NCBI GenBank assembly: GCA_000751595.1 | Contig: CCMH01000003.1 | Location: 62,001 to 126,000 of the forward strand | Origin: Weeksella massiliensis | Lineage (GTDB): Bacteria > Bacteroidota > Bacteroidia > Flavobacteriales > Weeksellaceae | Length of the DNA: 64,000 nt | Reading direction: 5' to 3' | In this document: piece by piece, positions 47,697 to 56,611 of the stretch | Layout of the letters: the number at the start of each line of letters is the position of its first letter | Numbering within the stretch: position 1 is the stretch's first letter | Made by a program: the position numbers and the translations under genes | The notes under the pieces: model-generated | What the model was told of the DNA's origin: nothing | Database searches by the model: none | What the model saw: the letters and a program-made list of their open reading frames with translations, nothing else

Positions 47697-47762
47697 CTTT
47701 TTTTCTTACAAGTTACTTCTTTTTCTACCGAAATAAACTACATAAGTTATTTGTTTAAATTA

Positions 47763-47774
47763 ATTCTAAATAAG
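47763..47774 (+). promoter_or_regulatory. Element shared by both haem promoters, copy 1
   Basis: ATTCTAAATAAG lies right before a TTG(19)AATCTTTG promoter-like pair (47777-47806). ATTCTAAATAA recurs beside the TonB receptor promoter at 56601-56611. Candidate iron- or haem-responsive operator. Confidence 0.5.
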
Positions 47775-47806: not shown

Positions 47807-47836
47807 TTTTTTATTTAGTCTTAATATAAATAACAC

Positions 47837-48712
47837 ATGAAGAAAGTAATTCTACTGGGTTGCACCTTGGCTTTTATGATGGCCTGCACCAAAGAAGCAA
47901 AAACAGAAAATGCACAACAAGCAGTCGCAGAAAAAACAGATGCAATTAATGCAGAAAGAATAGCATCCTTGAACGGCTCGATCACCGAAACCTTGGCACT
48001 ACTTGGAAAAGATAAAAATATTGTCGGTGTAGATGTCACGAGTACATTTCCGCAAAACGTCCAAGTACATGCTGCAAATCTTGGTCATATTTCGAGTGTT
48101 ACCGCAGAACCGATTTTGGCACTAAAACCGACCTTGGTATATGCAACAACGACTGAAATGAAACCAGAATTACAAAAGCAATTAGAGCAAGCTCATATTA
48201 CGGTTCGATTAATCGATCAGCCAATGTCGGTAGAAGAAACTAAGGAAATGATTACATCGATTGCCAAAGATGTTCAATCTCAAGATTATGAAAAATATCT
48301 GACCGAAATAGATCAAAAACTTCAGCAAGTAACACCTTTAGACCAAAAACCAAAAGTATTATTTATCTATGCTCGCGGTGCTGGAAACCTGATGATTGCT
48401 GGTAATAATACTCCCATCCAAAAAATAATAGAAATGGCAGGTGGCGAAAATGCGGTGAACAATATAGATGATTACAAACCCTTGACTCCGGAAGCAATGA
48501 TCAATGCCAATCCTGATTATATTTTACTTTTTGATCGCGGATTACAAAGTTTAGGTGGTAAAGAAGGTGTACAAAAAATTGAAGGAGTAATGGCGACCAA
48601 TGCAGGAAAAAAGATGAACATCATTTCGATGGACGGACAACTTTTATCAGGGTTCGGACCGAGATTGGGCGATGCTACATTACAACTTAATCACTTATTA
48701 CAAGGAAAATAA
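47837..48712 (+). CDS. Haem-type ABC transporter substrate-binding lipoprotein
   Basis: 291 residues. A lipoprotein signal (MKKVILLGCTLAFMMA then Cys17) is followed by a helical-backbone periplasmic binding fold: RIASLNGSITETLALLGKDKNIVGVD, AEPILALKPTLVYATTTEMKPEL, VLFIYARGAGNLMIAG and GFGPRLGDATLQLNHLL. The YARGAGNLMIAGNNTPI segment is typical of haemin-binding (HmuT/ShuT-like) members. The downstream permease, ATPase and HmuS-like protein support haem as the ligand, though it is not proven. It probably sits on the inner membrane facing the periplasm. Confidence 0.88.
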   Translation: MKKVILLGCTLAFMMACTKEAKTENAQQAVAEKTDAINAERIASLNGSITETLALLGKDKNIVGVDVTSTFPQNVQVHAANLGHISSVTAEPILALKPTLVYATTTEMKPELQKQLEQAHITVRLIDQPMSVEETKEMITSIAKDVQSQDYEKYLTEIDQKLQQVTPLDQKPKVLFIYARGAGNLMIAGNNTPIQKIIEMAGGENAVNNIDDYKPLTPEAMINANPDYILLFDRGLQSLGGKEGVQKIEGVMATNAGKKMNIISMDGQLLSGFGPRLGDATLQLNHLLQGK

Positions 48713-48738: not shown

Positions 48739-49773
48739 ATGCACAAGAAGCTAAGATTTTATATAATTTCTTTCAGCCTGCTCACGATTCTTATCTCTAT
48801 CATCGCATTATTTATTGGCATATATCAATTCAATATTCCAATCACAGAACATGTGAAGAGTCTAATTCAATTGAAAAAAATTACCGACGAAAGTGATGCT
48901 TATGTCTTGTTCGATTTACGTTTACCTCGAATATTGATGGCTATTTTGGTAGGAAGTGGTTTGGCCGTAACAGGAACCTGTTTACAAGGAATTTTTAAAA
49001 ATCCACTAGCTTCTCCCGACCTCATCGGGATTACATCGGGTTCTATTTTATTTGCTGCAATAACCATTGTTTTAGGACAGCATTTATATGCGTTCTTACC
49101 AAAAATTGTGCATTACTTTTTACTCAGCATCATGGCATTCATCGGTGCTTTGCTTACCATTTGGTTGGTCTATAAAATTTCTACCAAAAATGGGCAAACC
49201 AACATTTCTTTACTTTTGTTATCGGGTGTTGCCATCACTGCGCTTTGCGGTGCCGGCACAGGTTTACTCACCTATTTATCGACAGAAGACGAACTAAGAA
49301 ATCTAACGTTTTGGACACTCGGAAGTTTAGCCGCCGCGAATTGGTACTCGATCGGAATTTTGAGTGTGGTTCTGTTTTTTAGTTTTCTATTTCTCATCCC
49401 AAAAGGTAAAACCCTAAATGCTATGCTTTTAGGAGAAAAAAACGCCTCACATATTGGGATTGATATTGAATCGTCTAAAAAGCAAATCATCCTATTTTCG
49501 GCTCTAATTGTCGGCAGCATTGTTTCTTTCACCGGTACGATAGGATTTGTTGGTTTAATAATACCATACATTTTACGATTAAAATTTCAATCGAATTTTA
49601 CTTATATGCTTCCATTATCAGCTATTTTAGGCGCGTTACTGGTAATTGTTGCCGATACATTGAGTAGAACGATTGTTGCACCAGCCGAGATTCCGATTGG
49701 GATTTTGACTTCATTGATGGGAGCGCCTGTTTTTATTTCAATATTGATTCGATACAAAAAAAACTTATCATGA
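48739..49773 (+). CDS. FecCD-family ABC transporter permease (haem type)
   Basis: 344 residues, about nine or ten transmembrane segments. Family marks: LFDLRLPRILMAILVGSGLAVTGTCLQGIFKNPLASPDLIG, FWTLGSLAAANW, GTIGFVGLIIPYILR and VADTLSRTIVAPAEIPIGILTSLMGAPVFISIL. It forms the inner-membrane channel with the ATPase that follows; their genes overlap by four bases (ATGA). Confidence 0.93.
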   Translation: MHKKLRFYIISFSLLTILISIIALFIGIYQFNIPITEHVKSLIQLKKITDESDAYVLFDLRLPRILMAILVGSGLAVTGTCLQGIFKNPLASPDLIGITSGSILFAAITIVLGQHLYAFLPKIVHYFLLSIMAFIGALLTIWLVYKISTKNGQTNISLLLLSGVAITALCGAGTGLLTYLSTEDELRNLTFWTLGSLAAANWYSIGILSVVLFFSFLFLIPKGKTLNAMLLGEKNASHIGIDIESSKKQIILFSALIVGSIVSFTGTIGFVGLIIPYILRLKFQSNFTYMLPLSAILGALLVIVADTLSRTIVAPAEIPIGILTSLMGAPVFISILIRYKKNLS

Positions 49774-50543
49774 TTCAGGCAGAACATATACGTTTTCCTA
49801 CCAAAACAGCTGCAATTCTAAAGGATATAAATTTCCGAGCAGAAAAAGGAAAACTGATTGCGATTATCGGACCCAATGGAGCGGGGAAAAGTTCTTTATT
49901 GAATTATTTAGCCAATGAAATCGACCCGAAAAAAAATTGTACGTGTTTCAAAGGAAAAAATTATCGAGAATGGTGTCGAAACGAATTGGCTTGTCAGAAA
50001 GCTAAATTCTCTCAACAGCAACAAAACGATATTCCATTGCGTGTAAAAGATATTTTATTGATGGGACGATATCCGTATTTTCATCAACAACCAAACGCGA
50101 ATGATTGGGAGGCGACAAAAATTTGGATGCAAAAAACGGAAATTTCTCATTTAGAAAATCGCGAATACAATCAACTTTCGGGAGGAGAAAAACAGCGCGT
50201 TCATTTGGCGAGGATTTTTGCTCAGGTAGAAAATAAAGCTCAAGAAAAATTAGTATTTTTAGATGAACCCTTGAACAACTTAGATATTGCTCATCAGTTT
50301 AAAATCTTACAAACCATCAAAGATTTTACACAAAATAACAATACGGCAATTACAGTTTTACACGACCTGAATCTTACGGCACAATTTGCAGATGAAGTTG
50401 TGTTGATGCAAGATGGAGAAATAAAAATGTATGATTCGCCCGAAAAAGTTTTCCAACAAAAAACTATAGAAAATGTCTATCAATTTCCATGTAAAATAAT
50501 TTCTAACCCAATAACCAATAGACCGTATATCGTCTTTGGATAA
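49770..50543 (+). CDS. hmuV: Haem ABC transporter ATP-binding protein (HmuV-like)
   Basis: 257 residues. Walker A GPNGAGKSS, Q-loop in KAKFSQQQQNDIPLRVKDILLMGRYP, ABC signature LSGGEKQRVHLARIF, Walker B LVFLDEPLNNLDIAH, and switch His in VLHDLNL. The Q-x-F-P... and HQQPNANDWE features and the neighbours fit the HmuV haem-import type. Drives uptake together with the permease and the lipoprotein. Confidence 0.93.
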   Translation: MIQAEHIRFPTKTAAILKDINFRAEKGKLIAIIGPNGAGKSSLLNYLANEIDPKKNCTCFKGKNYREWCRNELACQKAKFSQQQQNDIPLRVKDILLMGRYPYFHQQPNANDWEATKIWMQKTEISHLENREYNQLSGGEKQRVHLARIFAQVENKAQEKLVFLDEPLNNLDIAHQFKILQTIKDFTQNNNTAITVLHDLNLTAQFADEVVLMQDGEIKMYDSPEKVFQQKTIENVYQFPCKIISNPITNRPYIVFG

Positions 50544-50556
50544 AAAATAAAATAAT

Positions 50557-51591
50557 ATGAATTCAACCATCTCATTACAAGAACAATGGGATTTGCTGAA
50601 GAAAGAGCAACCCAATTTACGAATCAGAAATGCAGCCAATGCGCTAGGAGTAAGCGAAGTAGAATTACTTTGTTTGCAACTAGGCAAAGAAGTTATCCGT
50701 TTAGAACCTAAATTTTCTGATCTTTTACAAGCTATCGAATCGCTCGGAAAAGTGATGGCTCTTACCCGAAACGATGAAGCTGTACACGAACGAAAAGGAG
50801 TTTATCTCAATCCCGATTTCAGTTCTCCTCATGCGCAACTTTTTGTTGGCGAAGATATCGATTTGAGAATTTTTTCTTCCTTTTGGCAAAGTGCTTTTGC
50901 GGTTATCGAACCCACAAAAAATGGCGATAGAAGAAGTTTACAATTCTTTGGTAAAGACGGATCGGCTGTGCACAAAATTTATCTTACTCCGCAAAGCAAT
51001 GTGATTGCATTTGATACTTTGGTACAAAAATATAAAAGTGACGATCAGACTTCGGTAGAAAAAATAAATTATCAAGAAGAAATCGTGGATGAAAAAGCAG
51101 ATGATGAAATTGATGCAGCAACTTTTCAGAAAGCTTGGTTAGAGCTAAAAGACACGCATGATTTTTTTATGATGTTAAAAAAACACGGCGTAAGCAGAAC
51201 ACAAGCGATGCGCTTGGCTCCATCGGACTATCATGCCAAGAAAATTGAATCGAATAAAATTGTAGACCTTTTAGAAAAGGTTGCCGAAAATCAGACCCCT
51301 ATCATGGTTTTCATAGGAAATAAAGGAATGATCCAAATCCATACAGGACCGATAAAAAAATTGATGTGGCATGGCGAATGGTACAATATTATGGATCCTG
51401 ATTTTAATATGCACTTGGCAATGGACAAAATCGATAGCGCTTGGATTGTACGCAAACCAACCGAAGATGGCGTGGTGACGTCGATCGAAGCCTTCAACAA
51501 AAAAGGTGAACTAATTGTTCAGTTTTTCGGAAAGAGAAAGCCAGGAATTCCCGAATTAGAACAATGGCAACAAGTTGTTGCTGAATTGTAA
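50557..51591 (+). CDS. hmuS: Haemin-degrading factor / HmuS-type haem-handling protein
   Basis: 344 residues, cytosolic. Two repeats of the ChuX/HmuS domain (about residues 1-165 and 190-344) are seen from LGVSEVELLCLQLGKEVIRL, AVIEPTKNGDRRSLQFFGKDGSAVHKIYLT in the first and HGVSRTQAMRLAP, IMVFIGNKGMIQIHTGPIKKLMWHGEWYNIMDPDFNMHLAMDKI and SIEAFNKKGELIVQFFGKRKPG in the second. Proteins of this family accept haem from the importer and transfer or degrade it to release iron. Last gene of the plus-strand operon; a terminator follows. Confidence 0.9.
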   Translation: MNSTISLQEQWDLLKKEQPNLRIRNAANALGVSEVELLCLQLGKEVIRLEPKFSDLLQAIESLGKVMALTRNDEAVHERKGVYLNPDFSSPHAQLFVGEDIDLRIFSSFWQSAFAVIEPTKNGDRRSLQFFGKDGSAVHKIYLTPQSNVIAFDTLVQKYKSDDQTSVEKINYQEEIVDEKADDEIDAATFQKAWLELKDTHDFFMMLKKHGVSRTQAMRLAPSDYHAKKIESNKIVDLLEKVAENQTPIMVFIGNKGMIQIHTGPIKKLMWHGEWYNIMDPDFNMHLAMDKIDSAWIVRKPTEDGVVTSIEAFNKKGELIVQFFGKRKPGIPELEQWQQVVAEL

Positions 51592-51681: not shown

Positions 51682-51709
51682 AAAAAAAGGTTGCCTAAAA
51701 GACAACCTT
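51682..51709 (-). terminator. Terminator of the receptor/HmuY operon
   Basis: On the minus strand AAGGTTGTC/GGCAACCTT with one mismatch and a T7 tract, just after the T9SS-HmuY gene. Two terminators thus separate the convergent haem operons. Confidence 0.85.
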
Positions 51710-51735
51710 CTCAAGATAGATATAAAATACACAAA

Positions 51736-52977
51736 TTATCGCAGAACGATTTTCTTTGTTTTTTTGATGCCGTTACTCTCTGCCGTTACGATATATACGC
51801 CCGAAATCAACTTGGATAAATTAATTTTTTTGGTCGCAAATTGTGCGCTCGGACGATAATTTTCTTGATGCACAATTTGTCCATTAAGATTGAAAACGCT
51901 GAGCTGAATATTTTCGTTGCTCGAGTATTGACCATTAAAAGCAACCTGAATTGTTTTCGGATCATTCTGAATCGTAAATACATCAAAATTGCTGGTTTGA
52001 ACGCTAGAAATACTTAGAGAACTCGTTACATCTTCGTAATCGAAAGTAATTTTTCCGGTAGAACTTCCTTCGAAACCGGTGAAATTCAATCGATAAATTT
52101 TATTGGTTTCGGTATTTTTGATAAAATAATGTTGATTGGACAAGGTATATGTAGAACCGTTAAAATTTTTCCAATCATAACCAATCGAATTTATTTCGGC
52201 TTTGTACGCCTCATCATTACTCGGATTTCCCGATTCTGTTTTGGCAACTTTAACCAAATCAGATTGTAGAATACCGGTAACAGGATACATCATCGTTCCA
52301 CCTTCGTACGGCAGCGGTGTTTGGTATTTCGTAAACTTCATCTCCCACTTATCCTGCTCTGCTTCTGCATTTACGACTTGTTTCGTGGTCAAGTTATAAT
52401 AATTAAAAATACGATTTTCGGTAGTATTCTGTTCAATATTTACACTTTCATCGGCAGACCACGTTCCATTTTCCCACTTAGAAAAAGTGAAAGTATAGGT
52501 CCCGAAAGCCAATTTATCAATGCGTAATTTCACGTAATCTCCATTATCATACTTCAAGACAAAAATTATTTTACCGTTGACATTATGCGTTGCCATGTCA
52601 TATTCTCCCCAACCATAGGTTGCCGATCCCTGATTGAAAGCACCTTCGTCCCACTTTTCGTCGCTATTGTAAAGGGCTACCCAAGAATTTTCATTGCTTG
52701 GTGAAATTGAATTCCAATCGGTTAGCGAATTAGAAGCTTCGAAAACTTGAATACCTTTGGTATCATTTACTCGAATTCCTAAACCAAACATCGATTTTCT
52801 GAAAAAAGCTAAATCCCATTCTTGGCGATTCACCTCGAATTTTGTTTGATTTTCTAATCCAAAATACACATCATTTTGATAGGCTTGTCCCATCGAAACT
52901 TCGCTTTGGATTATTTGAGCTTGTAAACTAAGTGCCATCAAAAATGTTGCACTAAATAGAGTATACTTTTTATTCAT
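51736..52977 (-). CDS. HmuY-like protein with a T9SS C-terminal sorting domain
   Basis: 413 residues. Signal peptide MNKKYTLFSATFLMALSLQA. The central part (about 25-330) has the HmuY-like pattern: VYFGLENQTKFEVNRQEWDLAFFRKSMFGLGIRVND, then a second half QDKWEMKFTKYQTPL and IGYDWKNFNGSTYTLSNQHYFIKNTETNKIYRLNFTGF. This follows the same order as the neighbouring lipoprotein (WDLGF...VVLNG; IGSNWRD...FFVLKDTEGYFYKIRML). The last 75 residues (NIQLSVFNLNGQIVHQE ... KLISGVYIVTAESNGIKKTKKIVLR) are a type A T9SS sorting domain, so it is secreted across the outer membrane and attached to the surface or released. Unlike the lipoprotein, it has no lipobox. Haem binding is inferred. Confidence 0.82.
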   Translation of the reverse strand: MNKKYTLFSATFLMALSLQAQIIQSEVSMGQAYQNDVYFGLENQTKFEVNRQEWDLAFFRKSMFGLGIRVNDTKGIQVFEASNSLTDWNSISPSNENSWVALYNSDEKWDEGAFNQGSATYGWGEYDMATHNVNGKIIFVLKYDNGDYVKLRIDKLAFGTYTFTFSKWENGTWSADESVNIEQNTTENRIFNYYNLTTKQVVNAEAEQDKWEMKFTKYQTPLPYEGGTMMYPVTGILQSDLVKVAKTESGNPSNDEAYKAEINSIGYDWKNFNGSTYTLSNQHYFIKNTETNKIYRLNFTGFEGSSTGKITFDYEDVTSSLSISSVQTSNFDVFTIQNDPKTIQVAFNGQYSSNENIQLSVFNLNGQIVHQENYRPSAQFATKKINLSKLISGVYIVTAESNGIKKTKKIVLR

Positions 52978-53022
52978 GATTACAATTTTTATGTTATACT
53001 TTTTGTTTTGTTTATATTTTGA

Positions 53023-54423
53023 TTATGGTATGAGTTGATATTCTAGACGAGGATATCCTCTTTCACCTGAAGTATTTTTCAGGTTGAGCATTCGTATTTT
53101 ATAGAAATAACCTTCTGTATCTTTAAGGACAAAGAATCGATTTTTCGTCACTGTTCCTTCAAAAACATCTCGCCAATTGCTTCCGATAGTACGTACATCT
53201 TTATCGAATTTTGATACATCAATCATCGATTTAGAAAAAGTAGAAAACGTCACCTCTTTGGTTTCGGTCACCATATAGACTTCCACGCCACCCAAACGAT
53301 TATGGACAATGAAATCTGAATTCCCGTACGAGCCACTTCCATCAATTAGGGTTGTGAAAACCGTAAAACCAATATCCCATTTAGACGATTCGGGTTGGGC
53401 TTCAACTATTTTTTGATCTTGAAGATTGACAAAACTGAAATTGGCTCGTGAGTTTTTAGCGATTTCGATTTCTCGATGAGTTGTTTCATTGATTTTTGCA
53501 TACTGTAAGAGATAGTTTCCATTCTTTTTCAACACTCTAATTTTCATCCAACCTCTGTGATTACCAGCGATGGCAACAGAGCCTACCGCAGGTGTTATGT
53601 TCCCAACTTCATATCCTAAATTGATTAGATAGACATTATTTTCGTCATCATTATCCGCAATTTCTGCAATGGCGGTTTGTTTTATATCACCAGAAGGATG
53701 ATCGACAAAAGCTGCATTCTGTGCATCGAAAGTCCCAACCGCAACTTGTGGATAAAAGATTTTCACTTGATCTTCTGTTACTTGATCAATAGAATTGGCC
53801 GGCAATTTTTTCGCTGCCATATAAATAGACCCGTTGAGAACAACACGAAAATCATCTCCGGTATAAAAACCTAAATCCCATTGATCTCGTCTAAACTCGA
53901 ACATTTGCTCTTCACTGAGATCGATATACACTTGGTTTGGTTCAGTCGGTCCGCCAACATTCGGCGCAAGCGTTGCACCAATCGAAGCCTCGAAAGAAAC
54001 TGTTAATTGTGTATAGCCTTGAATAGAAAAAGCTTCTTCGGATTCGATATTTTTTATTTTGAATTGAATTCTTTTGTCTGCCCGATCAAACGGATAAATA
54101 AGATTGGTAAAAGAAAAACTCAATTGATGAACATCTTTCTCATACGGCAACCGAATTTGTCGATTTTGTGCTTTGGGAAATGTGGTATAATCTTGATTAT
54201 ATTCGGCATTTTCTTCTACTATTTCTATCACAACTACGCCGCTTTGCGTTGCAGGTTTAGAAAAGTCTAATTCAATTTTTTGTTCATTTTGGATTTTCGA
54301 ATAGTTGAGCGATTGATCGGCAAAAGCAATCACAAATGGTTCGGACAAAGGTTGTTCGTCATCTACACAAGCCGAGAGAAATAAAACCGTAATAAAAGAG
54401 ATTATCCAAAAATATTTAGCCAT
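53023..54423 (-). CDS. HmuY family lipoprotein
   Basis: 466 residues. A lipobox LSAC (Cys19) after MAKYFWIISFITVLF anchors it in the outer membrane. HmuY-type features: VYIDLSEEQMFEFRRDQWDLGFYTGDDFRVVLNGSIYMAAKKL (about 165-210) and RTIGSNWRDVFEGTVTKNRFFVLKDTEGYFYKIRMLNL (about 415-452), plus SKWDIGFTVFTTLIDGSGSYGNSDFI. The first 140 residues form an extra domain not seen in Porphyromonas HmuY (about 216 residues). It probably takes haem from host proteins and hands it to the TonB receptor encoded just upstream (2-bp gap). Confidence 0.85.
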   Translation of the reverse strand: MAKYFWIISFITVLFLSACVDDEQPLSEPFVIAFADQSLNYSKIQNEQKIELDFSKPATQSGVVVIEIVEENAEYNQDYTTFPKAQNRQIRLPYEKDVHQLSFSFTNLIYPFDRADKRIQFKIKNIESEEAFSIQGYTQLTVSFEASIGATLAPNVGGPTEPNQVYIDLSEEQMFEFRRDQWDLGFYTGDDFRVVLNGSIYMAAKKLPANSIDQVTEDQVKIFYPQVAVGTFDAQNAAFVDHPSGDIKQTAIAEIADNDDENNVYLINLGYEVGNITPAVGSVAIAGNHRGWMKIRVLKKNGNYLLQYAKINETTHREIEIAKNSRANFSFVNLQDQKIVEAQPESSKWDIGFTVFTTLIDGSGSYGNSDFIVHNRLGGVEVYMVTETKEVTFSTFSKSMIDVSKFDKDVRTIGSNWRDVFEGTVTKNRFFVLKDTEGYFYKIRMLNLKNTSGERGYPRLEYQLIP

Positions 54424-54425
54424 AA

Positions 54426-56540
54426 TTAATTGTATTTCAGATTATAAAGAATTTTAAAAAAGTAAGAACGCCCATATCCTAACATCATCGAACTATTGGC
54501 TGACGCATGTCCGTTGGCTCCTTGTGTTGTATTGTTAATGGTTTTTATATCAAACAGATTTCTCGCACCAAGCACCAATTCCATTCTATTATCGAATAAT
54601 TTTTGGCGAATAGAAGCATCCATCCAATTGTACGAATCTTGTATTCCTTTCACATACTCGATTTGCTGATCCAATTGACTTACTTCTCGATACAATTCTT
54701 GTTTGCCATTGTATTTGTAGAAAATAGAAAAAGTGGTTTCGGTCGAAGGAATTTGATAGGAAGCATTGAGATTGAAATTGGTGGTATAAAAATATTTTTC
54801 GTCAACGTTTGCCTCTTCAGCTAGACTTTGTTTGATTCCGGTTAATGAAATTCCAGCACCAAACTGAAAAGTTTTCCATTTCCAATCCGAGCTATAAGTT
54901 AGCCCTTGCGTATCGTACTTATCAACATTGATATATTTGTACTGAAGCGGCGAAAAACTCAAAGCCATCAGTTCTATTTTGTCGCGCAAATGAATTTTCC
55001 AAGCAGAAAGTTTTTGTTCATAAGATGAATTTTCCCAATACCAATTCTTTTTCAGATGCAAGAAAAGAGAATTTCCTTTTTCAGGTTTCAAGTCAGGATT
55101 TCCTTGCAAATCATGGTTCACGTCTACAAAATAGGTAAACAACTCATCAAAATCGGGCGTTCTTGGCGCCGTTCCTGCAATCACTCTCAACTCAAAATCT
55201 TTAGGCAACAGAATTTTAGCACTCAAACTTGCTGCATGTTGGGTATCGAATAAATTAGAAAACATCACTCTATATCCAGGTCGAACAGAGAATTTTGGAG
55301 AAAAATTAACTTCTGATGATGCAAAAAAATCATACGAACTAACCTGACGATCAATCGGATTGGTATAAATATCTTTGCGCTGAGCAGCTTTTCCGAAGAT
55401 CGAATTGATTTCATACCCAAGTTGAAAATCGAATTTCCGATCCTTCACAACATTGCTAACCGTAGCTTTAGAGTACACCGCTTCTCGACTGTCGTAGGTA
55501 GAAGTGCGTACATCATTTTCGGTCTGAGAAGCAATTTGGTATTGATAATTTTTTTGCTGTCTTTTTTGATTTTGGTAGGATAAACTCGCATCGTATTGCC
55601 ATGTATCCGAAATATTTCCACTTGCATTGAATAAATTATACCAACGTTGCGTCTTGAAATCAGTGTCTTCTGCAAGTGCATTTTTGGTTCCTGTAGAAGG
55701 CTGTTCGTGCAATTGAACGACCGGATTATAGTAATTTGTTTTTTCGTTGAAATATTCTAATCGATAAAAAAACTGATGAGCTGCCGTTGAATACCTCATC
55801 AAAAATTTACTGCTATTTTGTTCTTTTGGCAACCAAGAATAACCTCTTTTCCCGTCGTTTTCGGCATAATGTTTTCCTTTTTTATCATCCCAAAAACCTT
55901 TAAAATCATTTCGGTTGAAATTAAATTCCGTGTACCATTTCGGACTGATTGCGTGCCCGATTTTTAGCGATTGTATATGTCGGCCTTTATTCTTCAGATT
56001 ATATTCATCATTCACGGTTTCTTCTTGGACAAATGCAGAAATATCTATCTTGGCTCTTGCATTTTTTTTGGTAATAATATTGATAACACCTGCCAACGCA
56101 TTTGCTCCATAATCCACTCCCATAGCGCCTTCGACGATTTCTATTTGTTGAATATCATCTAAATTAAGCTGTGTTAAATCGGTATGATTTCCTAAACCTT
56201 CATCGTTGAGAAGAGGAATATTGTCGACCAAAACCTTGAAATATTGCCCACCCATCCCAAACATACTCACCGAAGATTTTCCGGTATTTGGACTGCTGAT
56301 CACGGTAAGATTCAGCGTTTGATTGAGCACATCGGCCAAGTTATTAGCGGCCAAACGATCGATCACATCTCGGCTGAGCACTTTCACTTCATAGATCGAT
56401 TTTTTTACCGATTGTTTATTGAATTGTCCAGACACGACGGTTTGCTCTAATTCTATTCGGTTTGATGCGATAGAATCTTTGGTTTGCGCAAACATTGTCT
56501 GAAACCCAACTGCTGTTATAAGCAAGAATGGAATCCTCAT
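54426..56540 (-). CDS. TonB-dependent receptor, haem type (HmuR-like)
   Basis: 704 residues. Signal MRIPFLLITAVGFQTMFAQ, then a TonB-box-like start (KSIYEVKVLSRDVIDRLAA), plug domain (LADVLNQTLNLTVISSPNTGKSSVSMFGMGGQYFKVLVDNIPLLNDEG ... IQQIEIVEGAMGVDYGANALAGVINIITKK) and a 22-strand barrel to the end (FKILYNLKYN). It lacks the N-terminal carboxypeptidase-regulatory-like domain of SusC-type receptors. Partners (HmuY-like proteins) make haem the likely ligand. First gene of the operon. Confidence 0.9.
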   Translation of the reverse strand: MRIPFLLITAVGFQTMFAQTKDSIASNRIELEQTVVSGQFNKQSVKKSIYEVKVLSRDVIDRLAANNLADVLNQTLNLTVISSPNTGKSSVSMFGMGGQYFKVLVDNIPLLNDEGLGNHTDLTQLNLDDIQQIEIVEGAMGVDYGANALAGVINIITKKNARAKIDISAFVQEETVNDEYNLKNKGRHIQSLKIGHAISPKWYTEFNFNRNDFKGFWDDKKGKHYAENDGKRGYSWLPKEQNSSKFLMRYSTAAHQFFYRLEYFNEKTNYYNPVVQLHEQPSTGTKNALAEDTDFKTQRWYNLFNASGNISDTWQYDASLSYQNQKRQQKNYQYQIASQTENDVRTSTYDSREAVYSKATVSNVVKDRKFDFQLGYEINSIFGKAAQRKDIYTNPIDRQVSSYDFFASSEVNFSPKFSVRPGYRVMFSNLFDTQHAASLSAKILLPKDFELRVIAGTAPRTPDFDELFTYFVDVNHDLQGNPDLKPEKGNSLFLHLKKNWYWENSSYEQKLSAWKIHLRDKIELMALSFSPLQYKYINVDKYDTQGLTYSSDWKWKTFQFGAGISLTGIKQSLAEEANVDEKYFYTTNFNLNASYQIPSTETTFSIFYKYNGKQELYREVSQLDQQIEYVKGIQDSYNWMDASIRQKLFDNRMELVLGARNLFDIKTINNTTQGANGHASANSSMMLGYGRSYFFKILYNLKYN

Positions 56541-56576
56541 GAATTGCTATTTAGATTTAGTCTATATTAATTTTAG

Positions 56577-56584: not shown

Positions 56585-56600
56585 TAGTTTATTTTTACTT

Positions 56601-56611
56601 ATTCTAAATAA
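56601..56611 (-). promoter_or_regulatory. Element shared by both haem promoters, copy 2
   Basis: ATTCTAAATAA (plus strand) is identical to 47763-47773. It covers the -33 position of the receptor promoter, so a repressor bound there could block transcription. Confidence 0.5.

Follow-up and report, generated by a model that had tools for sequence, protein, structure and literature searches.

Several described systems of Bacteroidota place a HmuY-family protein beside a TonB-dependent receptor, and they are the points of comparison for the locus analysed here, a receptor gene followed by two HmuY genes in a stretch of 64,000 nucleotides from Weeksella massiliensis (contig CCMH01000003.1; hereafter the window). 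Riemerella anatipestifer has its receptor RhuR between the anchored protein RhuA and the secreted haemophore RhuH, with a common Fur-box promoter (PMC11967795, PMC5609570). RhuA is located in the outer membrane and binds haem, but is unable to extract it from duck haemoglobin, which RhuH can do; RhuH binds haem with a dissociation constant of 3.44e-11 M, and its hand-over of haem to RhuA or RhuR is a proposal of the authors (PMC11967795). That one receptor may be served by an anchored partner together with a secreted one is already a known idea, and the W. massiliensis locus resembles this one in having one receptor, one anchored HmuY protein, and one secreted candidate haemophore. With HmuR-HmuY of Porphyromonas gingivalis (PF14064; 3h8t), it shares a haem-type TonB receptor adjoining a HmuY-fold protein. 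It differs from the latter in that each of its HmuY proteins contains, by sequence, two HmuY units, that the lipoprotein (hereafter LP) has an additional Calx-beta domain, and that LP has a paralogue (hereafter T9) with a type A sorting domain of the type IX secretion system (T9SS).

Other systems share single traits with this arrangement. Flavobacterium columnare C6N29_01035 joins a HmuY domain to a Por_Secre_tail domain, like T9, and is stated to be secreted by the T9SS, but the passages of PMC9618737 that describe it mention no anchored HmuY partner. The initial annotation had presented a HmuY core joined to a sorting domain as a departure from the classical arrangement, a novelty that was overstated because the F. 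columnare case is in print. In the hmu operon of Porphyromonas endodontalis, HmuY is accompanied by POREN0001_0445, which has a type A T9SS sorting domain, but the published passages depict the latter as beta-barrel-like and its homologues elsewhere as orphan genes, and do not call it a HmuY paralogue (PMC11208336). Prevotella intermedia has two HmuY homologues in one organism (Pi-1 and Pi-2), but the hmu operon and hmuY-2 lie on separate chromosomes (PMC12106395). In the iron-regulated hfpR-hfpY locus of Flavobacterium psychrophilum, the receptor is followed by a HmuY-family protein that binds haem (HfpY), but a DoxX gene stands between the two and the operon has a single HmuY protein (PMC9331221). 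HBP35 of P. gingivalis is a haem-binding T9SS effector (PMC10202324), but a chain named "35 kDa hemin binding protein" (5y1a) matches the T9 profile in the sorting domain only (E 0.024). The accessible passages of the open-licence PubMed Central literature yielded no pair of lipoprotein and T9SS-type HmuY proteins that are tandem paralogues exported by two routes.

The order of receptor, HmuY lipoprotein, and HmuY protein with a sorting domain, which the initial annotation read from the sequence, was confirmed by the gene coordinates and by Pfam matches to HmuY and to the sorting domain (Table 1). The observation is real and the arrangement is conserved beyond chance. Receptor and LP are separated by 2 bp, LP and T9 by 45 bp, and the stem-loop with a T run that follows T9 is a likely terminator, read by eye and without an entry in the consensus scan. 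Both proteins score above the Pfam gathering cut-off for HmuY of 27 bits, LP with 91.1 bits (E 1e-25) and T9 with 43.2 bits (E 5.8e-11). They are the sole HmuY proteins found in the 2.56 Mb genome, whose four HmuY stretches are divided equally between them.

Table 1. Coordinates of the features discussed. Positions without a locus label refer to the window; L numbers are loci of other genomes.
Feature	Position	Strand	Remark
TonB-dependent receptor, HmuR/RhuR-like	54426-56540	-	704 aa
Receptor His476, five residues before NPDL	55113-55115	-	in 160/160 aligned LP-linked receptors, window included
LP (lipoprotein, Calx-beta domain and two HmuY units)	53023-54423	-	466 aa
LP lipobox Cys19, then VDDE, surface-export-signal-like	54367-54369	-	sequence and alignment
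LP Calx-beta-like domain, residues 28-144	53992-54342	-	3e9t Z 12.7, 109 aligned, root-mean-square deviation 2.6
LP HmuY unit 1, residues ~155-322	53458-53961	-	Pfam profile 3-88 of 157
LP HmuY unit 2, residues ~323-466	53026-53457	-	Pfam profile 3-157 of 157
T9 (tandem HmuY and type A T9SS sorting domain)	51736-52977	-	413 aa
T9 HmuY unit 1, residues ~27-183	52429-52899	-	Pfam stretch 33-156, profile 2-142 of 157
T9 His131, candidate haem ligand	52585-52587	-	His in 76/77 aligned T9
T9 HmuY unit 2, residues ~184-323	52009-52428	-	second Pfam stretch, profile 6-157 of 157
T9SS sorting domain of T9, residues ~329-413	51739-51993	-	Por_Secre_tail; structure matches
Stem-loop and T run 3' of T9, likely terminator	51686-51710	-	read by eye
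Two Fur-box-like sites 5' of receptor	56591-56609, 56549-56567		matrix scan
Two Fur-box-like sites 5' of HmuT	47753-47771, 47813-47831		matrix scan
HmuT-like ATP-binding cassette (ABC) binding protein	47837-48712	+	Peripla_BP_2; IsdE 73.8 bits, below cut-off
HmuU-like permease	48739-49773	+	FecCD
HmuV-like ATPase	49770-50543	+	ABC_tran
HemS/ChuX-type haem protein	50557-51591	+	HemS 268 bits, ChuX_HutX 214 bits
Empedobacter HmuV-HemS fusion	L181:8430-10262, L182:8599-10431, L183:9053-10885	-	both profiles match
Empedobacter HmuV-HemS fusion	L060:3185-5017	+	both profiles match
RhuH haemophore (DUF6607)	L041:9067-9966	+	PDB 8xjc
"INENFD" gene	L055:3655-4479	-	
"INENFD" gene	L136:10433-11218	+	
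"INENFD" gene	L147:2008-2763	-	

The division of LP and T9 into two HmuY units each is predicted from the Pfam matches and modifies one claim of the initial annotation, that both proteins share the order WDLxF...IGxxW: the motifs are present in both, but WDLxF belongs to unit 1 and IGxxW to unit 2 (WDLAF, then KWEMKF with IGYDW in T9; WDLGF, then WDIGF with IGSNW in LP). Structure prediction supports the assignment to the HmuY family. The AlphaFold models of T9 (predicted local distance difference test 91.7, 77 aligned sequences) and LP (87.9, 39 aligned sequences) both match solved HmuY structures, and neither fold turned out to be unlike HmuY. VIA-align of either model against 3u22, 3h8t, 6r2h, 6eu8, and 8b6a gave Z of 11.8-16.4 with 126-157 residues aligned. 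Among the matches that VIA-align lists, HmuY structures lead for both models. The best solved matches of the LP model are of the HmuY family (Z 14.4-16.4), with 3u22 at Z 16.4 (139 residues, 2.3 A) and 3h8t at Z 15.7 (136 residues, 2.5 A), and the T9 model aligns with 6r2h (Z 13.9, 126 residues, 3.0 A) and 3h8t (Z 12.2, 128 residues, 3.2 A). One HmuY chain aligns, with 125-157 residues, across the range from the start of unit 1, or before it, to the end of unit 2, so that the units defined by sequence may be two closed folds or a single interlocked one. Foldseek matches were weaker (T9 with 6r2h, E 3.8e-4; LP with 3u22, E 3.3e-4, ranked below Calx-beta rows) and superposed poorly over the whole model (template-modelling score to target 0.33-0.41 for HmuY rows). 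Searching the PDB by phmmer with LP or T9 as single sequences was of no use, and profiles gave modest matches: T9 with 8b6a (E 9.6e-4 for alignment A1, 2.6e-7 for A3), and LP with 8b6a (0.001) and 6eu8 (0.0026) for A2 and with 6eu8 (0.021) for A4. A3 comprises the window and 76 of 80 T9 loci (L250, L255, L257, and L258, which have no recognised sorting domain, were dropped), and A4 the window and 38 LP with a Calx-beta domain. Both proteins are of the HmuY family, with HmuY-like predicted folds.

The initial annotation took LP and T9 for paralogues exported by different routes, and both halves of this claim hold at the level of sequence. The two proteins are 22% identical over 310 aa (BLASTP, E 4e-8), and profile comparison with hhalign gave E 1.8e-20 between their second units and E 1.4e-8 between their first units. 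Comparison of unlike units gave E 3.8e-8 (T9 unit 1 with LP unit 2) and 0.0047 (T9 unit 2 with LP unit 1), and that of the two units within one protein E 2.4e-7 for T9 and 0.0022 for LP. The simplest reading is that a two-unit ancestor existed before the gene duplication that would have produced them. As for export, a hydrophobic stretch at the N-terminus of LP terminates in LSA|C19, followed by VDDEQ. Acidic residues right after the lipobox cysteine are a surface-export signal of Bacteroidota lipoproteins; 39/39 aligned LP have Cys19, with two acidic residues or more among the five that follow, and LP is predicted to be a lipoprotein at the cell surface. Among short LP, 76/89 have a lipobox by a crude pattern. 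T9 is predicted to be exported through the T9SS: its sorting domain matches Por_Secre_tail (PF18962, 37.1 bits, cut-off 27) and TIGR04183 (33.7 bits, cut-off 23), the model of this C-terminal domain (CTD) resembles the mirolase CTD 8qb1 (Z 11.0) and the NucA CTD 8glk (Z 10.1), and an N-terminal signal peptide was recognised by eye. The genome encodes a T9SS (SprA_N, E 9.3e-133) and has 34 sorting-domain matches, 32 of them above the cut-off. The two signals are kept apart across relatives. No lipobox was seen by eye in T9 and a lipobox-like motif occurs in 0/143 T9 proteins, and a sorting domain occurs in 0/173 LP-labelled frames (123 LP and 50 LP with a Calx-beta domain); here and below, the counts over 143, 160, 173, 179, and 180 are not independent, as genomes are shared between the loci L035-L148 and L179-L258 (e.g., L129 and L179).

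Haem is the cargo that the surroundings of the locus suggest. An operon of HmuT-, HmuU-, HmuV-, and HemS-like genes converges on the receptor-LP-T9 genes, and in many relatives HmuTUV/HemS likewise stand beside the triad. Empedobacter has the import ATPase HmuV fused to the cytoplasmic haem protein HemS in a single open frame of 611 aa (HmuV 418-419 bits, HemS 610-613 bits). The receptor has plug and barrel domains, and a histidine ahead of an NPDL or NPNL motif is a signature of haem TonB receptors. The aligned receptors, which all have His476, carry after it NENL (49/160), NPDL (44/160), or NPNL (9/160). The receptor scores 76.7 bits with the haem model TIGR01785 (cut-off 316.85) and 79.6 bits with the BtuB model TIGR01779 (cut-off 599.7). 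That it matches BtuB as strongly as haem models, and that certain HmuY proteins have no iron ligand and make contact by way of the porphyrin ring (PMC12106395), would fit another tetrapyrrole or a corrinoid as the cargo; we hold this to be very improbable, given the adjoining HemS and HmuTUV, the Fur-box-like sites at both operons, and the invariant receptor histidine before NPDL.

These sites were located with matrices built from 8, 11, or 9 published Riemerella boxes (PMC5609570), the 9-box matrix being the 11 boxes minus the two of the homologous Riemerella promoter. The four best scores of the window start at 56591, 47753, 56549, and 47813, and this holds for all three matrices, although with 9 boxes the fourth-best place (14.7) is barely above the fifth (14.3). 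Iron-controlled haem uptake is likely because these top four scores precede the receptor operon and the HmuTUV-HemS operon. Markov shuffles reached the best score upstream of the receptor in 2/500 (11 boxes) or 3/500 (9 boxes) cases, and upstream of HmuT in 0/500 with both. Among 179 loci, from which the one taken as R. anatipestifer (L041) was left out, the piece upstream of the receptor topped 20/20 of its own shuffles in 124 with 11 boxes, or in 122 with 9 boxes (8.5 expected). With the 8-box matrix and random pieces that included coding DNA as the comparison, 94/180 loci stood out (8.6 expected).

Candidate haem ligands were sought in both proteins. The iron ligands of described HmuY members are His-His, His-Met, or Met-Met, and some members have none (PMC12106395). 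His131 is the sole near-invariant histidine of T9; it is in a loop similar to that of His166 and precedes the strand IIFVLKYDNG as His166 of HmuY precedes VFFVRGADG, a correspondence placed by motif order, not by superposition, and we found no second conserved ligand site among the 77 aligned T9. LP has no near-invariant histidine (His316 is present in 31/39), and its best-conserved candidate is Met202 (38/39). The HmuY pair His134/His166, whose residue numbers are from PMC11967795 and which we counted at chain positions 109/141 with an offset of 25, is conserved as His or Met in neither LP nor T9. This lack of canonical ligand pairs would also fit a T9 that is not a haemophore but reuses the HmuY fold to bind haemoproteins, or other cells, at the surface. 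The F. columnare mutant lacking its T9SS-type HmuY, whose growth and killing of fish equalled those of the wild type (PMC9618737), would agree with this, but the near-invariant His131 and the persistent linkage of T9 to a haem-type receptor make it improbable.

The same two-protein layout was searched for in relatives, and the triad recurs. Among the best 80 of 161 T9 loci, 72 have a receptor on the same strand within 4 kb and 69 have LP too, in the order receptor-LP-T9 (47) or with T9 first (22); eight show no receptor, some of these being on short contigs. T9 holders include Vaginella, Algoriella, Empedobacter, Chishuiella, Psychroflexus, Flavobacterium, Mesonia, Winogradskyella, and Aequorivita, and metagenome-assembled genomes as far as Crocinitomicaceae, Chitinophagaceae, and Bacteroidales. 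Across the order, T9 was found in at least 90/395 genomes and LP in at least 82/395, lower bounds with four candidates scored per genome. In the family of W. massiliensis, HmuY occurs in 117/197 genomes and T9 matches with E <=1e-10 in 88/197, of which 11 lie only between 6e-11 and 2e-13 and 77 are clear (at most nine candidates per genome). Absence of T9 from such a genome search is weak evidence, and we used fetched neighbourhoods instead, some of them ended by contig edges. They come from 112 of the 117 HmuY-bearing genomes, the remainder being the genome of the window and four weak-match genomes of unlisted place. The resulting 114 stretches comprise 11 with a tandem LP and a same-strand T9 behind it, 59 with T9 divergent from the receptor, 31 with no T9 found within the stretch, and 13 without a tandem LP, so that T9 is present within 70/101 tandem-LP stretches. 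Six of the 31 genomes carry T9 elsewhere (G002, G017, G087, G106, G136, and G191). Among the 59 divergent cases, T9 is apparently broken in two, by decay or by assembly error: in G135 (L085) it lies in two frames with stops, and in G146 (L093) the sorting domain is separated from the remainder. A second family of the order, with stretches chosen by LP alone, has T9 beside receptor-LP in 0/20 stretches, which represent 20 of its 21 LP-bearing genomes (one stretch, L272, stops some 0.5 kb past LP); in the 21st, G464, T9 adjoins LP by coordinates, and in G384 of that family it lies elsewhere. T9 is dispensable, an accessory to a receptor-LP core.

This distribution supports a model of parallel delivery, in which LP and T9 would each supply the receptor separately, from differing sources (such as free and haemoprotein-bound haem) or redox states, and with no hand-over between them. 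LP lacks an adjoining T9 in many genomes, and within the family of W. massiliensis most T9 genes stand apart, divergent from the receptor (59/70 T9-bearing tandem-LP stretches). The best-conserved candidate ligands also differ (His131 in T9, Met202 in LP), and His- and Met-ligand HmuY proteins differ in redox preference (PMC12106395). Yet, the window has both paralogues in one operon, which fits hand-over equally well. We consider parallel delivery rather unlikely.

The explanation towards which we lean, by a small measure, is that of an iron-repressed haem-uptake locus in which T9 captures haem and LP loads the receptor. The process would involve 1) release by Fur, under low iron, of the two convergent operons, receptor-LP-T9 and HmuT-HmuU-HmuV-HemS; 2) export of T9 via the T9SS and capture of haem at or beyond the cell surface through the conserved His131; 3) display of LP, held by its lipid on the outer face with the Calx-beta domain as a spacer; 4) receipt by LP of haem from T9, of free haem, or of haem from degraded haemoproteins, and loading of the receptor; 5) TonB-powered import, with His476 of the receptor as part of the haem path; and 6) passage over the inner membrane by HmuTUV and acceptance of haem by HemS. 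Receptor and LP would be the core, and T9 an accessory capture arm extending the reach of the same receptor.

A number of arguments weigh against this explanation. First, the B12 and haem models score alike for the receptor, and all below their cut-offs. Second, T9 is missing beside receptor-LP in the other family and in 31/101 stretches of its own family, so there is no obligate relay. Third, the HmuY histidine pair is conserved in neither protein, and unit 2 of both LP and T9 lacks a conserved His or Met at the loop of His166. Fourth, F. columnare without its T9SS-type HmuY grows and kills fish as the wild type does. Fifth, the parallel with R. anatipestifer is one of analogy only because RhuH is unrelated to T9. 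The haem relay nevertheless appears to us a fair reading of the data, with the independent-delivery model close behind.

The Riemerella comparison rests on L041 of genome G052, in the family of W. massiliensis (Weeksellaceae). A match of its RhuH to 8xjc (298 residues, 672 bits) is why we take this locus to be R. anatipestifer. Its HmuY protein has a single unit (214 aa frame), and its RhuH is of the family DUF6607 (PF20311), unrelated to T9. A Pfam family of "unknown function", DUF6607, hence contains a haemophore. We rejected the identity of T9 with RhuH, since the L041 gene divergent from the receptor is RhuH, a DUF6607 protein and not HmuY. PF20311 gave no match in T9 (E up to 1), nor any in the genome of the window or two sampled congeners. 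DUF6607 occurs in 17/197 genomes of the family (16 above cut-off), and the notion that T9 replaces RhuH was also rejected, as 8/16 of the above-cut-off genomes also match T9 with E <1e-50 (G017, G025, G034, G042, G068, G136, G167, and G175). In seven genomes of the family (G013, G017, G025, G041, G136, G167, and G175), a DUF6607 gene lies on the same strand directly behind the tandem LP.

Further variation was seen around the receptor-LP core. The Calx-beta-like domain is present in LP of some clades only, and a tie between this domain and T9 was rejected as a clade effect: in the family of W. massiliensis, T9 stands behind 11/11 LP with the domain and on the same strand for 0/90 LP without it, in the other family 7/7 LP with the domain have no adjoining T9, and in four Winogradskyella loci (L200, L202, L214, and L256) T9 stands behind LP without it. 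In several T9-less stretches of the family, a gene for a protein with "INENFD" close to its N-terminus is divergent from the receptor; the protein has a sorting domain in L136 (52.6 bits) and falls just under the cut-off of 27 in L055 (25.7). Of the 57 stretches in which more than 700 bp separate T9 from the receptor, 30 have an open reading frame with a motif of this kind in the interval (the 57 include the 11 receptor-LP-T9 stretches), and the "INENFD" protein is possibly a third exported component. Two loci of genus g29 (L039 and L144) have a single-unit HmuY ahead of the receptor, with much higher scores (Pfam E 8.1e-40 and 1.5e-34), and after these two a gene with "LVSHGSHSETWRN" or "LVNHGSHSETWRN"; we take this layout to resemble the classical Porphyromonas-type hmu operon, inside the same family.

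The paralogy of LP and T9 allows a more specific history, which we put forward as tentative and doubtful: a tandem HmuY haemophore would have been duplicated early in Bacteroidota and its copies split between two export machines as a two-stage relay, the His131-bearing T9SS copy stripping haem in the open, and the lipoprotein copy mainly receiving haem and loading the receptor. If true, the relay would be built from one ancestral protein, with T9 in the role that the unrelated RhuH has in Riemerella. The wider question is the path of haem from a free haemophore to the receptor in Bacteroidota; in Riemerella, the link between RhuA and RhuH is left for later work (PMC11967795). Here a single receptor gene is followed by those of an anchored-type and a secreted-type partner that are paralogues, and the genera concerned have members in culture, so that the transfer of haem between the two, their order of action, and their export routes can be tested.

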